Below are positions 23,104 through 27,093 of a DNA stretch of 64,000 bases, one piece after another. Made by a program: the position numbers and the translations under genes. This DNA comes from Roseovarius salinarum (lineage in GTDB: Bacteria; Pseudomonadota; Alphaproteobacteria; Rhodobacterales; Rhodobacteraceae), in NCBI RefSeq assembly GCF_002834145.1, contig NZ_PHNT01000011.1, forward strand, positions 1-64,000. Reading direction: 5' to 3'. The notes beneath the pieces are model-generated. The model did no database searches. It saw only the letters and a list, made by a program, of their open reading frames with translations, and had not been told where the DNA came from. The number at the start of each line of letters is the position of its first letter. Within the stretch, counting starts at the first letter, position 1.

Positions 23104-23539
23104 GCGCGCCACGCGCCTGCCGGCCATCGGCGCGGGCGCGGTGGCGTCCTGAACGGCACGAAAAGCGAATCAACCGTGCGGTCCCGCCGGGTGCGGGGCC
23201 GCCGTGCAGCGCGCGCATGCCCATTTGAAAAGGCGGGTCCGCGCGCGGGGTGTGCCCTGCCGGCAACGGGCCCGGGTTCCCGCGATGCCGCAGCTTCGGG
23301 CAACACCGCATCAATGATTGGCAGGAGACGTTCGCGCAGGCGAGTCGGACTTCGGGGCATGCTCAAAAATTACTGCAATTGCGCAAGTTTAGATCACTTT
23401 CTTAGCTTGCAAATTCTGCATAGCAGCATTGAGAAACCCGGGGATTGTGCAGGTGCAGCATCCGCCTATGTTGGAGGTCAACGAGACACGGCACGGCGTC
23501 CAGGCCGCCGCACCGACCGACCACGACGGAGCACGAAGA
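23104..23539 (+). other. 436-bp intergenic leader of the DUF1127-sRNA unit
   Basis: I see no convincing gene here; the in-frame readings have neither ribosome-binding site nor recognisable protein features. The first half is GC-rich. The part from about 23360 to 23440 is markedly AT-richer than its surroundings (GCTCAAAAATTACTGCAATT and TTTAGATCACTTTCTTAGC), as expected of a regulatory region. A candidate promoter lies at 23445-23472. Confidence 0.5.
23445..23472 (+). promoter_or_regulatory. Candidate heat-shock-sigma (RpoH-like) promoter
   Basis: TTG at 23445-23447 and CCTATGTT at 23465-23472 are 17 bp apart and about 70 bp upstream of the DUF1127 start. In Rhodobacter sphaeroides the homologous DUF1127-CcsR unit is transcribed from an RpoHI/RpoHII promoter with a similar -10 element. 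The match here is by eye only. Confidence 0.35.
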
Positions 23540-23767
23540 ATGGCATTCGATGTCAACACCCGCCCGGCCCACTCGACACTCGCGCTTGAAATCAGCGCGC
23601 TTGTCGACCGCTTGGGGCAGCGGGCTGCACACTACGCCGCCTTCCGCCGCACGCGCAACGAACTCGCGGCTCTGAGCGACCGCGAACTCGCGGATCTCGG
23701 CGTGCACCGCAGCGAAATCACGCGCTGCGCCTACGAATCCGTCTACGGCCCCCGCGACCGGGGCTGA
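23540..23767 (+). CDS. DUF1127 protein (CcaF1-like)
   Basis: 75 residues, with the DUF1127 core YAAFRRTRNELAALSDRELADLGVHRSEI near the C-terminus. Small arginine-rich DUF1127 proteins in alphaproteobacteria affect RNA turnover and stress responses. In Rhodobacter sphaeroides the gene immediately upstream of the CcsR sRNAs (RSP_6037, CcaF1) is a DUF1127 protein cotranscribed with them, and this locus has the same arrangement. The first sRNA stem begins 7 bp after the stop codon, so mRNA and sRNAs are very likely one precursor. Confidence 0.92.
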   Translation: MAFDVNTRPAHSTLALEISALVDRLGQRAAHYAAFRRTRNELAALSDRELADLGVHRSEITRCAYESVYGPRDRG

Positions 23768-23773
23768 CAGAAA

Positions 23774-23851
23774 TCAGGCGCTCTTTCTCCTCCTCCCTTG
23801 GAGCGCCTGAGACCGGCGGCGGCACCCTTCCTCCTCCCTGGTGCCGCCGCC
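23774..23851 (+). ncRNA. CcsR/cuckoo-type sRNA, unit 1
   Basis: Two adjacent stem-loops, each exposing CCTCCTCCC. Hairpin 1 has arms TCAGGCGCTC (23774-23783) and GAGCGCCTGA (23801-23810) with the motif at 23789-23797. Hairpin 2 has arms GGCGGCGGCACC (23815-23826) and GGTGCCGCCGCC (23840-23851) with the motif at 23830-23838. Two loops with this anti-Shine-Dalgarno-like motif define the CcsR family, described in Rhodobacter sphaeroides as stress-induced regulators of C1 metabolism and pyruvate dehydrogenase. It is probably processed from the DUF1127 transcript. Confidence 0.9.
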
Positions 23852-23861
23852 CGTAAGACCG

Positions 23862-23989
23862 GGGATCCTCGGATCCCGACAGCATACGCGGGGTTCCCTC
23901 CTCCTCCCTGAACCCGCGCGTTGTATGGCGGTGGCACCTCTCCTCCTCCCGGGTGCCACCGCCGCAAGACACTGGGATCCTCGGATCCC
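23862..23989 (+). repeat. Inter-unit palindromes GGGATCCTCGGATCCC, 112 bp apart
   Basis: The same 16-base palindrome occurs at 23862-23877 and 23974-23989, each time between two sRNA units and followed by GACAG(C/G)ATACG. The exact 112-bp period shows that units 2 and 3 arose by tandem duplication of spacer plus sRNA. With a 2-base loop the spacer can form a short hairpin that may mark a processing site between units. Confidence 0.75.
23886..23963 (+). ncRNA. CcsR/cuckoo-type sRNA, unit 2
   Basis: Hairpin 1 pairs ACGCGGGGTTC (23886-23896) with GAACCCGCGCGT (23910-23921) with one bulged base; its loop holds the motif at 23900-23908. Hairpin 2 pairs GGCGGTGGCACC (23927-23938) with GGTGCCACCGCC (23952-23963), motif at 23942-23950. 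Compared with the other units the stems carry compensating changes while the CCTCCTCCC loops stay fixed, which is strong evidence for a selected RNA structure. Confidence 0.9.
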
Positions 23990-23997
23990 GACAGGAT

Positions 23998-24084
23998 ACG
24001 TGGGGTTCTCTCCTCCTCCCTGAACCCACACGTTGATCGACGGCGGCGCCTCTCCTCCTCCCGGGCGCCGCCGTCATTCTTTTT
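23998..24084 (+). ncRNA. CcsR/cuckoo-type sRNA, unit 3 (with terminator)
   Basis: Hairpin 1 pairs ACGTGGGGTTC (23998-24008) with GAACCCACACGT (24022-24033), motif at 24012-24020. Hairpin 2 pairs GACGGCGGCGCC (24039-24050) with GGCGCCGCCGTC (24064-24075), motif at 24054-24062. Unit 2 has ACGCG and CGCGT where unit 3 has ACGTG and CACGT, a covariation. The second hairpin is followed by ATTCTTTTTC and so doubles as the terminator of the whole DUF1127-sRNA transcript. Confidence 0.9.
24039..24084 (+). terminator. Rho-independent terminator of the DUF1127-sRNA transcript
   Basis: A perfect 12-bp GC-rich stem (24039-24050 with 24064-24075) is followed by ATTCTTTTT. The units before it lack such a T run after their second hairpin, so termination is expected only after the third unit. 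Confidence 0.8.
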
Positions 24085-24152
24085 CTGGCCACATCCTTGA
24101 CCCGCGTCGCAACTTGGCGATCCTTCGGCCGTGATGCCGCCAAGGGGGGAAG

Positions 24153-25457
24153 ATGACCCGACACGCAACCGATGCCGCCACCTGCCGCGCCATTCGCGAC
24201 GCCGTGGCAGAGGCCATGCCCGCCCAGACCGAGTTCCTGGCCGATCTCACGCGCGTGCCCAGCGTGCGCGGCCAGGAAGGGCCGGCACTGGACCTGGTGG
24301 CCGGGGCACTGGGCGCCCACGGCATGGCCGTGGACGACTGGACCGTGCCGGTCGATGAGTTGGCGGGCCAGCCCGGGTTCTGCCGGGCGGCGGGCGAGGT
24401 GCCGTCGGTGCGCAGCGTCGTGGGCACGCACAGGCCCGCGCAGGCGCGCGGGCGGTCGTTGATCCTGCAGGGGCACCTGGACGTCGTGCCGCCGGGGCCG
24501 GAGGGCATGTGGACCACGCCGCCATTCGAGCCCGTGCTTCGCGACGGCTGGATGCACGGCCGTGGCGCCGGTGACATGAAGGCGGGGGTCTCGGCCAATC
24601 TCTTCGCCCTGGCCGCGCTGGCGCGCGCGGGGGTGGCGCCGGCGGCGCAGGTGCATCTTCAGGCGGTGGTCGAGGAGGAAAGCACCGGCCTTGGCGCGCT
24701 GGCCACGCTCGCGCGCGGGTATCGTGCGGACTGCGCGCTGATACCCGAACCCACGGCGCACGGGCTGGTGCGCGCGCAGGTGGGCGTGCTGTGGTTCCGG
24801 CTCGAGGTGGCAGGCCGGCCCGTGCACGCGGCCGAGGCCGGGCAGGGCGCCAACGCCATCGACGCCGCCTGGCACGTCATCGGGGCCCTTCGCGAGATGG
24901 AGGCGCGCTGGAACGCCGCCGCCGCCGCCGACCCGCTCTATGGCGGCGTGGCCCACCCGCTGAACTTCAACCCGGGCCGGATCTCGGGTGGCGACTGGGC
25001 CTCGAGCGTACCGGCGTGGTGCCACGCCGATTGCCGGATGGGCCTTTTGCCCGGCGCCGACGTGGACGAGGCGAAGGCCGAGATCGAGGCCACGGTGGCC
25101 GAGGCGGCGCGCGGCCATCCCTTCCTGTCTGCGCATCCGCCGCGCGTGGTCTGGAACGGGTTCGAGGCCGAAGGATACGTGCTGGACCATGCAGGCCCGG
25201 CCGAAGCGGCGCTGGCCGGTGCCTACCGGCAGGTTTTCGGCGAGGACGGCCCCGAAGACCGGATCTGGACGGCGCTGACCGACACGCGGTTCTACGGTCT
25301 CTATCACGGTATTCCGGGGGTGTGTTTCGGCCCGCGTGCCGAGGGCATTCACGGCTTCGACGAGCGCGTCGACCTCGGGTCGTTGCAGCAATGCACCGAA
25401 ACCATCGCGCTTTTCGTGGCGGCGTGGTGCGGGCTGGAGCCGGCGGGCGATGCCTGA
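24153..25457 (+). CDS. M20-family metallopeptidase/deacylase (ArgE/DapE type)
   Basis: 434 residues. The metal-ligand motifs of the M20 family are GHLDVVPPG, GRGAGDMKAG, VEEESTG and the later EP of LIPEPTAHG, with the dimerisation domain between (HAAEAGQGANAIDAAW). The C-terminal GVCFGPRAEGIHGFDERVDLG provides the last histidine. Related enzymes hydrolyse N-acyl amino acids such as acetylornithine or succinyl-diaminopimelate; the substrate is not assigned. The ATG at 24153 follows AGGGGGGAAG. It overlaps the acetyltransferase gene by 8 bp. Confidence 0.9.
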   Translation: MTRHATDAATCRAIRDAVAEAMPAQTEFLADLTRVPSVRGQEGPALDLVAGALGAHGMAVDDWTVPVDELAGQPGFCRAAGEVPSVRSVVGTHRPAQARGRSLILQGHLDVVPPGPEGMWTTPPFEPVLRDGWMHGRGAGDMKAGVSANLFALAALARAGVAPAAQVHLQAVVEEESTGLGALATLARGYRADCALIPEPTAHGLVRAQVGVLWFRLEVAGRPVHAAEAGQGANAIDAAWHVIGALREMEARWNAAAAADPLYGGVAHPLNFNPGRISGGDWASSVPAWCHADCRMGLLPGADVDEAKAEIEATVAEAARGHPFLSAHPPRVVWNGFEAEGYVLDHAGPAEAALAGAYRQVFGEDGPEDRIWTALTDTRFYGLYHGIPGVCFGPRAEGIHGFDERVDLGSLQQCTETIALFVAAWCGLEPAGDA

Positions 25458-25953: not shown

Positions 25954-26592
25954 CGCCGCCCCGGGAAAGCATGGGACATGGGAAACCGTGGGACACCGGC
26001 GCGGGAAACCGTGGGAACCGCGCCTGCCCAGGCCGAATCATGCATGGGAAAGCCGCGGGTCGGCCCGTGATTCACGCTTGAATCGCGCGGATTCCATGGT
26101 ATCTCGCCCCTCGTTCCCCGGTCTGGCGCGGAATTTCTGGGAATTCGCGGGAAATTTTTGCCGTTCCATTTCAGCACCACATATTGTGCTCATCAAATGG
26201 TATTCCGCAACTTCGTGGGAAAAATTGCCCGAAATTGCCACATCATATTGTCTCGGAGGGGGTGTCTGAACAAGATGATGTGGGTTCTTCGGGCAGAATT
26301 CTATTGATTTCCATGAATTCCCATGGCATCCCTGTATTCACGATGAGGACGGGACGAAGGGGCACGAAGAACCCCGCAACACAATCTCCCAAGTCAGGTT
26401 TCATACAGGCACCCGCTTCATCGCAAGAAGTTCCGGCGCGCGGGCGAGCAGACATCCCCCCAGGTGGCGCGCGCAGCCGGATACCCGCGCAGCGGGACGA
26501 GGGCGGCGGATTGGGCAGTGGCAGCAGCTCAATCCGCCGTTTCGTTTCCGGGGCGCGAAACAGCGGGGGCCGAGGAAAGGACCAGCTGGACA
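25954..26592 (+). other. 639-bp AT-rich leader region of the dcw cluster
   Basis: I see no gene here. The GC content falls clearly below that of the flanking genes, especially from about 26120 to 26350. The region holds repeated TGGGA/CGGGA words (see the entry at 25963-26153), the near-palindrome CACATATTGTG (26180-26190) and several A/T tracts. It must contain the mraZ promoter, whose exact position I cannot assign. Confidence 0.6.
25963..26153 (+). promoter_or_regulatory. Array of (T/C)GGGA repeats, candidate MraZ-binding boxes
   Basis: GGGA words begin at 25963/25973, 25980/25990, 26003/26013 and 26139/26149, each pair exactly 10 bp apart; a looser pair is at 26046/26057. The first three pairs share the form GGGAAA(G/C)C(A/G)TGGGA. 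In Escherichia coli MraZ binds direct TGGGN repeats separated by 5 bases (10-bp period) in front of its own operon, which matches this spacing. The upstream cluster begins 10 bp after the acetyltransferase gene, about 600 bp from mraZ. Confidence 0.65.
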
Positions 26593-27093
26593 GTGGTTCG
26601 ACGGTTCAGAGGCGAGAGCCACCACAAGGTGGACAGCAAGGGCAGGGTGTCGATCCCGGCCTCCTTTCGCCGAGTCCTCGAAGCGGGTGATCCCAACTGG
26701 ACCGACGGCCTCAACCCCGAGCTGGTGATCGTCTACGGCGACCACCGGCGCGACTACCTGGAATGCTACACGATGGAAGCGATCGGCGAGGTCGACGCCA
26801 AGATCGACCGGCTGCCGCGCGGCTCGATGGAACGCAAGATGCTTCAGCGCCTGTTCCACGGTCAGTCCTACCCCACCAACGTGGACGACACCGGCCGGCT
26901 GGTGCTGCCGGCCAAGCTGCGCCAGAAGATCGGGTTGGAGGACGAGGCGTTCTTCATCGCCGCCGGCGACACCTTCCAGATCTGGAAGCCAGAGACCTAC
27001 GAGGCCGAACAGGCCCGCACCGAGGCCTGGCTCGAGGACCTGCCCGACGACGTCGACCCGCTGGTCTTTCTCGACAAGGCGGAGGGGGAGTGA
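26593..27093 (+). CDS. mraZ: MraZ, transcriptional regulator of the dcw cluster
   Basis: 166 residues with two AbrB-like MraZ repeats: FRGESHHKVDSKGRVSIPASFR near the N-terminus and SYPTNVDDTGRLVLPAKLRQKIG in the middle. The paired DxxGR motifs are DSKGR and DDTGR. MraZ forms ring oligomers and binds the leader of its own operon, usually repressing it. I place the start at a GTG (26593) that gives MVRRFRGESHHKVD, preceded by GAGGAAAGGA; upstream in-frame starts would add residues unlike the family. Confidence 0.95.
   Translation: MVRRFRGESHHKVDSKGRVSIPASFRRVLEAGDPNWTDGLNPELVIVYGDHRRDYLECYTMEAIGEVDAKIDRLPRGSMERKMLQRLFHGQSYPTNVDDTGRLVLPAKLRQKIGLEDEAFFIAAGDTFQIWKPETYEAEQARTEAWLEDLPDDVDPLVFLDKAEGE

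Follow-up and report, generated by a model that had tools for sequence, protein, structure and literature searches.

The locus described here is very probably a DUF1127-CcsR (cuckoo, CIN1) operon, which would be transcribed from an RpoH-type promoter, probably with the help of an LsrB/VtlR-type regulator, and would give rise to processed anti-Shine-Dalgarno sRNAs. The array itself is an ordinary, well-formed three-unit array of a known RNA family. What was not expected is the control region, from which an activator of the LsrB/VtlR type is predicted in Rhodobacterales. In the proposed mechanism, a stress-type RpoH promoter, probably aided by a LysR activator of this type, would yield a single transcript for a small DUF1127 protein followed by three CcsR units. 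The 3' part of this transcript would be cut by RNase E, with participation of the DUF1127 protein, into two-hairpin sRNAs of about 80 nt, as is known in Rhodobacter sphaeroides. By their anti-Shine-Dalgarno core, the loops CCUCCUCCC would pair with GGGAGGAG-type ribosome-binding sites and, by analogy with Sinorhizobium meliloti NfeR1, would block translation of selected metabolic and transport mRNAs.

The array, its DUF1127 gene and its RNA family

The 64-kb window, i.e., the whole stretch of DNA that was analysed, contains the motif CCTCCTCCC exactly six times, always on the + strand and spanning positions 23789-24062 (starts at 23789, 23830, 23900, 23942, 24012 and 24054), compared with a mean of 0.78 and a maximum of three copies in 100 shuffled windows. 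Every copy sits in the loop of a predicted hairpin (-15.8 to -29.0 kcal/mol), and the 323-nt stretch of the array folds with a z-score of -10.3 against 100 shuffles. According to the fold, the hairpins form three A+B units (23774-23854, 23886-23963 and 23998-24075). An earlier note on this DNA had proposed six such hairpins in three two-hairpin units, and both points are borne out. Its description of six hairpins in a row holds for the motif hairpins, but two more hairpins, which lack the motif and were absent from the note, lie between the units. The features of the locus are:

23408..23421, + strand: TGCA-N6-GCAT dyad (TGCAAATTCTGCAT), predicted LsrB/VtlR-type LysR site, about -72 to -59 of the inferred start
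23417..23431, + strand: TGCATAGCAGCATTG, 13/15 identical to the reverse complement of the Brucella VtlR motif
23445..23472, + strand: RpoH-like promoter TTGTGC-N15-CTATGTT (sequence match)
23448-23461, + strand: second dyad TGCAGGTGCAGCAT inside the RpoH-like promoter, 40 nt after the first dyad
23540..23767, + strand: DUF1127 gene, 75 aa, ccaF1 counterpart (PF06568 50.9 bits, cut-off 23.3)
23774..23810, + strand: unit 1 hairpin A, CCTCCTCCC loop (fold)
23812..23854, + strand: unit 1 hairpin B, CCTCCTCCC loop (fold); the unit matches CcsR1 with 45.1 bits at 23769-23855
23862..23877, + strand: inter-unit hairpin without motif, GGGATC CTCG GATCCC (fold)
23886..23921, + strand: unit 2 hairpin A (fold)
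23927..23963, + strand: unit 2 hairpin B (fold); the unit matches CcsR1 with 46.1 bits at 23882-23967
23974..23989, + strand: second inter-unit hairpin, identical in sequence to the first (GGGATC CTCG GATCCC; fold)
23998..24033, + strand: unit 3 hairpin A (fold)
24039..24075, + strand: unit 3 hairpin B, likely also the terminator stem (fold); the unit matches CcsR1 with 46.5 bits at 23994-24079
24080..24084, + strand: run of five T behind the last stem, with ATTC between (sequence)

The array had also been credited with its own terminator. The T run is there, yet the tail is weak (stem, ATTC, five T), and a terminator scan, which takes loops of 3-8 bases only, found none at the array. In most rows of the unit alignment the T run starts directly on the stem. 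About 2.4 kb downstream of the array lies an mraZ-like frame (26464-27093, identified by eye), the long leader of which (window 26100-26640) is partly A/T-rich; in R. sphaeroides, the leader of the division-and-cell-wall gene cluster is reported to be the source of the sRNA UpsM.

The DUF1127 gene stands directly upstream of the array, as previously noted, and runs in the same direction, its stop codon lying 6 nt before the first hairpin. A DUF1127-like frame occurs at most 700 nt upstream in 121 of the 174 arrays listed, and many of the 53 listed arrays that lack one carry rhizobial record titles. Published accounts of the DUF1127 protein diverge: R. sphaeroides CcaF1 is reported to bind RNA, to affect CcsR levels and to promote CcsR maturation, yet in surplus it is described as disturbing this maturation (PMC8307010). 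According to another group, DUF1127 proteins work through protein contacts.

Compensated stem changes around constant loops, another point of the earlier note, were found among 27 aligned units, consisting of the 25 last units of relatives and units 2 and 3 of the window (of 27 reference loci, L027 and L024, the latter being the window itself, were left out). With a two-helix structure read from one aligned unit, standard pairs make up 99.1% of the cells, 9 of the 16 stem pairs are altered on both sides and 31 cells show a double change. Not one of 500 shuffles reached the pairing share, the both-side changes or the double-change cells, and a fourth measure, further pair types, was equalled by 37 of the 500. 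Sliding the partners by 1-3 columns left a pairing of only 33-55%. Across the aligned units, the loop of hairpin A does not vary at all and that of hairpin B hardly does.

These patterns bear on an alternative reading, in which the hairpins chiefly work in cis, stabilising the DUF1127 mRNA at its 3' end and terminating it, and the anti-Shine-Dalgarno loops are incidental. Such a role would suit hairpins that begin so close behind a stop codon, the last of which can terminate. A stabiliser, however, needs stems and not a sixfold fixed 9-base loop, and here the loops stay constant while the stems change. Moreover, CcsR1-4 of R. sphaeroides are described as separate sRNAs and rhizobial NfeR1 as an independent one, and many of the listed arrays without a DUF1127-like frame are rhizobial. 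We therefore regard a mainly cis-acting role as highly improbable and retain the sRNA operon as the preferred reading.

All three units match the Rfam model CcsR1 (RF02791) over model positions 1-83, with 45.1-46.5 bits and E-values of 4.9e-10 to 1.3e-9 in a 1-kb search; the covariance-model check that had been suggested thus yields full-length matches for every unit, albeit under the gathering score of 65.3 bits. The search was run at E-value level, because at Rfam gathering scores nothing in the window but a tRNA passes. Since 271 of 292 genomes of the order match CcsR1 and only 9 of the 292 pass its gathering score, we regard the RF02791 cut-off as tuned to the near relatives of R. sphaeroides rather than as a criterion for the kind. 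Judged by layout, structure and model match, the locus is a member of the DUF1127-CcsR kind that scores below the curated threshold. The association of DUF1127 with CcsR is described as the CIN1 locus. As the earlier note surmised, the locus resembles CcsR1-4/ccaF1 of R. sphaeroides, which is supported by the model match, the layout, the DUF1127 partner and the RpoH-like promoter: the two have in common a DUF1127 gene directly upstream, two-hairpin units with CCUCCUCCC loops, a promoter of RpoH type (putative in the window) and the bacterial order, and differ in that R. sphaeroides has four units and the window three (comparison based on PMC8625941, PMC10253847, PMC7866481 and PMC8307010).

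Two places in the array also match alpha-r14 (RF02344), with 49.4 and 45.5 bits and thus below its gathering score of 58.8. This family comprises NfeR1 of Sinorhizobium, whose hairpins bear the same loop as the window units and whose promoter is described as having a TGCA-N6-GCAT LsrB site in the same place as the window dyad. In contrast, NfeR1 is reported to be an independent three-hairpin sRNA with a sigma-70 promoter of its own and no need of Hfq, whereas the window has two-hairpin units placed right behind a DUF1127 gene. Two hairpins with C-rich loops are also typical of 6C RNA (RF01066) and Streptomyces Scr3202 (RF02833), families that belong to other phyla. Their models match the locus weakly, with 20.9-29.6 bits, far under the cut-offs of 47 and 52.

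Unit number, inter-unit hairpins and proposed processing

Of 292 genomes sampled evenly across the order, the source genome included, 271 have CcsR1 matches, at 1 to 10 per genome; stricter search filters were used in this survey, by which weak matches are lost. Among the 270 other matching genomes, 65 have one match, 70 two, 56 three, 48 four, 18 five, 6 six and 5 seven, while nine and ten matches were found in one genome each. In a second set, 35 of 60 genomes match, namely the source genome, 32 of 35 congeners and 2 of 24 from other families. The third unit is a local gain inside the ordinary range, since no congener exceeds two CcsR1 matches. By direct motif count, one congener (L029) has six motifs, in a different arrangement with extra single hairpins behind a spacer. 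The genome_contigs set comprises at least 117 loci (exact motifs required; titles given for 80), and of the 117 listed at least 61 have six or more, and up to 17, consecutive motif hairpins. Accordingly, the stress that the earlier note laid on three units was unwarranted, and the order-wide counts together with the long arrays elsewhere rule out unit number as a novelty. Examples of such long arrays are found in Paracoccus kondratievae (12 motif hairpins), an uncultured Pseudoruegeria (15), Wenxinia marina (17) and a Tabrizicola bin (16; loci L045, L046, L134 and L150).

Aligned together with the spacer in front of each, units 2 and 3 agree in 92 of 110 columns, and units 1 and 2 in no more than 63 of 93. 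Units 2 and 3 therefore have the look of a unit that was duplicated in tandem along with its spacer. This event would account for three units instead of two, and its main effect would be a higher dose.

Tandem CCTCCTCCC hairpins were also seen in IMG/VR viral contigs (L156-L275, among the matches listed). At least 146 double motifs are listed in at least 120 viral loci; both hairpin scores reach at least 17 in at least 73 of the double motifs and at least 22 in at least 61, two thresholds that correspond to the 95% and 99% levels of shuffled sequence with the composition of the window. In one contig (L235:1742-1789), the first motif lies 17 nt past a phage major-head-protein gene and ahead of head-tail genes. 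In view of these hairpins and this gene context, hairpin RNAs of the anti-Shine-Dalgarno type may also be encoded by phages or proviruses.

Across Rhodobacterales, neighbouring units are parted by a small motif-less hairpin. Long-class gaps, with 59-82 nt between motifs, fold better than their own shuffles: the mean z-score is -2.06 for 24 gaps of 23 loci in the genus (two of the gaps being those of the window) and -1.70 for 127 gaps of 72 loci among the genome_contigs matches listed, and 62.5% and 45% of these gaps, respectively, rank in the best 5 of 100. Taken alone, the two inter-unit gaps of the window are no stabler than shuffles (z-scores of -0.93 and -0.61). Spacers with a motif spacing of 59-77, a gap of 24-50 nt and no CTCCTCC inside numbered 188, of which 180 are distinct. 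Some hairpin forms in all 180, as GC-rich DNA often does; an uninterrupted helix of 5 or 6 pairs is found in 130 and a four-base loop, most frequently GCAA, in 74. Exchanging the 3' half between loci renders 166 of the 180 spacers less stable (mean of -10.8 kcal/mol for the native spacers versus -7.6). Positions -5 to -2 before the spacer stem are A/T-rich, and position -1 is mostly C.

In R. sphaeroides, RNase E is reported to release CcsR1-4 from the ccaF1 3' UTR, whereupon PNPase acts, and RNase E sites are described as AU-enriched (PMC6238624). From the spacer sequences we infer a cutting mark: each motif-less hairpin, together with the A/T-rich stretch on its 5' side, would show where the transcript is cut. 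The spacer hairpins suggest a specific way in which a polycistronic transcript of sRNAs would be divided into units.

The control region and a probable LsrB/VtlR-type regulator

The putative RpoH promoter TTGTGC-N15-CTATGTT, a sequence match, is present in the window and conserved upstream of DUF1127, and a sigma-70 promoter scan of positions 23300-24200 found none. The ccaF1 gene of R. sphaeroides is reported to have an RpoHI/RpoHII promoter, and in RpoH promoters a TTG near -35 and a T near -9 are said to matter (PMC3441632). The transcription start near 23480 is an estimate, on which the stated position of the first dyad depends.

The conservation of this region was assessed at 115 listed DUF1127-array loci. 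They derive from the 174 arrays with at least two hairpins, 121 of which have a DUF1127-like frame by a simple pattern; 6 of these with less than 200 nt upstream were dropped, and the window and four near-duplicates are included. TGCA-N6-GCAT is found at most 300 nt upstream in 98 of the 115 loci, against a letter-shuffled expectation of 0.52, which, like that for the VtlR motif, ignores the shared ancestry of the loci. By origin, the dyad occurs in 48 of 57 named Rhodobacterales, 23 of 23 congeners, 20 of 24 other family genomes, 4 of 8 Hyphomicrobiales, both unassigned loci and the source locus. It lies 36-37 nt before TTGTGC in 69 of the 115. The comparison pattern ATGC-N6-TGCA occurs in 87 of the 115 loci and TGCA-N5-GCAT in 72, the latter because it overlaps the same conserved block. 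At the 70 loci with the dyad 34-40 nt before TTGTGC, the consensus block before the DUF1127 start reads tATGCA.tTgCTGCAT.GCaGCAtTG, about 12 free bases and aTtgtgca...gcag, and is better conserved than the sequence around it. The second part of the block, TTGTGC-N14/16-(C)(C/G/T)AT.TT, resembles an RpoH promoter, and a second dyad, TTGTGCA-N6-GCA, is present in 57 of the 70.

In S. meliloti, LsrB is reported to bind TGCA-N6-GCAT at about -72 to -57 of the promoter of nfeR1, an anti-Shine-Dalgarno sRNA gene whose transcription requires LsrB (PMC10746234); relative to the inferred start, the window dyad falls where this site lies. The Brucella VtlR motif printed in PMC12595884 is matched, in reverse complement, at 13 of 15 bases in the window. 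Set against the VtlR consensus (GCAT-N3-TG-N3-T / CAATGCAGCCATGCA), the window site has AG in place of the TG of the short form. The best match among the 115 listed loci has one mismatch in 31, two in 50, three in 24 and more in 10, so that 81 of the 115 are within two mismatches. The respective controls for one, two and three mismatches are 0, 0.05 and 1.0 for shuffled sequences and 0.05, 0.05 and 1.35 for permuted motifs. Without the four near-duplicates, the dyad is found in 95 of 111 loci and the motif within two mismatches in 77 of 111. In Brucella, VtlR is reported to act mainly on the sRNA AbcR2 and on three DUF1127 genes; a fourth DUF1127 gene, which lacks the motif, rises in a VtlR mutant (PMC12595884). 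The VtlR/LsrB regulon of Brucella, Agrobacterium and Sinorhizobium resembles the present locus in joining a regulator to DUF1127 genes and sRNAs, with a DNA motif that is found here within two mismatches.

Within the source genome, an extended 24-base block has one exact match, at the array promoter, no match at one or two mismatches and six at three. The 15-base VtlR-like pattern has 2 exact and 11 two-mismatch sites, compared with 3 sites for the reversed pattern, and is not unique to the array promoter: the second exact site (TGCATGGCAGCATTG, L353, C34:106166-106180) lies upstream of a short-chain-dehydrogenase-like frame (identified by eye), away from any array or DUF1127 gene, and is possibly a further target or due to chance. 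The source genome has two further DUF1127 genes, and TGCA-N6-GCAT stands upstream of one only. This second gene (L337, C5:1339-1440) has the dyad (TGCAGGAACTGCAT) about 110 nt ahead of its start, as would be predicted were the DUF1127 genes under a single LysR regulator, and no sRNA array was seen beside it in the L337 stretch. The third has no TGCA-N6-GCAT within its 3-kb locus.

According to a 2025 paper (PMC11975290), LsrB, named VtlR in Brucella, appears unique to Rhizobiales, where lsrB shares an operon with trxB. With an LsrB query taken from beside trxB in a Rhizobium (L308), one clear match was found in each of five Rhodobacterales genomes, the source included (40-42% identity, 245-252 bits), while the next-best LysR proteins reach 103-133 bits. 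The best match in the source genome (G000:C2:11257-12159) scores 245 bits and the next 126. Back-searches with the source protein returned the LsrB beside trxB as best match in both rhizobial genomes, at 244 bits (next 152) in one and at 245 bits, as the sole match below 1e-40, in the other; the two proteins are thus reciprocal best matches. Each of 38 family genomes holds exactly one match with an E-value below 1e-40, the source protein itself included. In a 13-protein tree, which has long branches and includes no protein named OxyR, the source-type and rhizobial LsrB proteins form a group (100/100) that is separate from six other LysR proteins. Among the best 25 NCBIfam models for the source and rhizobial proteins, none reached its cut-off. 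In the DNA-binding end, 49 of 66 residues are identical; LHLSQSAVSRQ of the source protein corresponds to LHLSQSAISRQ of rhizobial LsrB, and HARGLILTEQGELL occurs in both.

In contrast to the reported arrangement in Rhizobiales, the source LsrB-like gene does not adjoin trxB. A location beside trxB in Rhodobacterales was rejected, as the neighbour of trxB is an Lrp-type gene (by eye) in the source and in the other complete family trxB loci examined. The LsrB-like gene was likewise rejected as a marker of the array: of the 21 genomes without a CcsR1 match in the order-wide set, 20 were tested and all 20 have the gene, which therefore does not track the array. The source protein has one cysteine and two rhizobial LsrB proteins have 3-4, so its signal may differ from that of rhizobial LsrB.

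It is conceivable, though we deem it the less probable case, that a regulator other than an LsrB-like protein binds the TGCA-N6-GCAT block. T-N11-A is a generic pattern of LysR sites, a search of the source genome with the LsrB query gives 21 matches, and both the cysteine count and the presence of the gene in array-less genomes fit this alternative. The same is true of the listed stand-alone, mostly rhizobial arrays, of which only 11 of 31 have the exact dyad at most 200 nt before the first hairpin (distance 68-73 nt). On the other hand, the commonest locus forms agree with the VtlR motif at 13 or 14 of 15 bases, the site shares its location with the reported LsrB site of nfeR1, the DNA-binding residues are largely those of rhizobial LsrB, and DUF1127 genes and an sRNA are the principal targets described for VtlR in Brucella. 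On balance we infer that LsrB-type plus RpoH control governs the DUF1127 protein and the processed anti-Shine-Dalgarno sRNAs.

A broader proposal combines these points, and we favour it by a narrow margin of belief. LsrB/VtlR would extend beyond Rhizobiales, and its Rhodobacterales orthologue would directly activate DUF1127-CcsR via the dyad at about -65. A module in which LsrB turns on a DUF1127 protein together with anti-Shine-Dalgarno sRNAs would predate the split of the two orders; in Rhodobacterales, protein and RNAs would have become fused into one RpoH-driven transcript, with dedicated spacer hairpins serving as cutting marks. Among the open-licence PMC papers listed, none was seen to link LsrB/VtlR with CcsR, CcaF1 or Rhodobacter.

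Candidate targets of the loops and meaning of the locus

The loops carry CCUCCU, the anti-Shine-Dalgarno core, and the earlier note suggested that the RNAs sponge or block many mRNAs. The 9-base complement GGGAGGAGG is not enriched in the source genome, since it occurs at 17 sites outside the array compared with 34 for the reversed control pattern; the count covers full 9-base complements and not shorter pairings. Eight of the 17 sites lie 3-9 nt before the start codon of a frame of more than 55 codons, a number that comes without a chance estimate. Six of the eight frames were compared with Pfam and five matched, which gives as candidate targets a pyridine-nucleotide-disulphide oxidoreductase, a cytochrome c, a sulphur-transport protein, a branched-chain amino acid permease and a proline dehydrogenase. 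The oxidoreductase, cytochrome c and sulphur-transport genes lie within 10 kb of each other (G000:C1:9100-19650, L365-L367), each with a full complement before its start.

Alternatively, the loops might titrate either the DUF1127 protein or a different RNA-binding regulator instead of pairing with ribosome-binding sites. Several consecutive loops would suit a decoy, and R. sphaeroides CcaF1 is reported to bind RNA and to affect CcsR levels. NfeR1, however, which has the same loop, is reported to repress ntrB at its ribosome-binding site only with intact loops, and the protein contacts invoked by another group for DUF1127 proteins also speak against a decoy. We consider titration improbable and ribosome-binding sites the preferred targets. 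CcsR1-4 are termed Hfq-dependent and NfeR1 Hfq-independent; therefore, the two need not work alike.

By itself, the array extends a known family by one species and points to tandem duplication as a way in which unit number changes. The promoter result would matter more than the array. LsrB/VtlR is a master regulator so far reported from another order than that of the host of the array, and the promoter reading opens the stated restriction of LsrB to Rhizobiales to a direct test in a laboratory strain. If true, it would join the CcaF1-CcsR system of phototrophs with the VtlR/LsrB, DUF1127 and AbcR/NfeR1 circuits of plant- and animal-associated bacteria.
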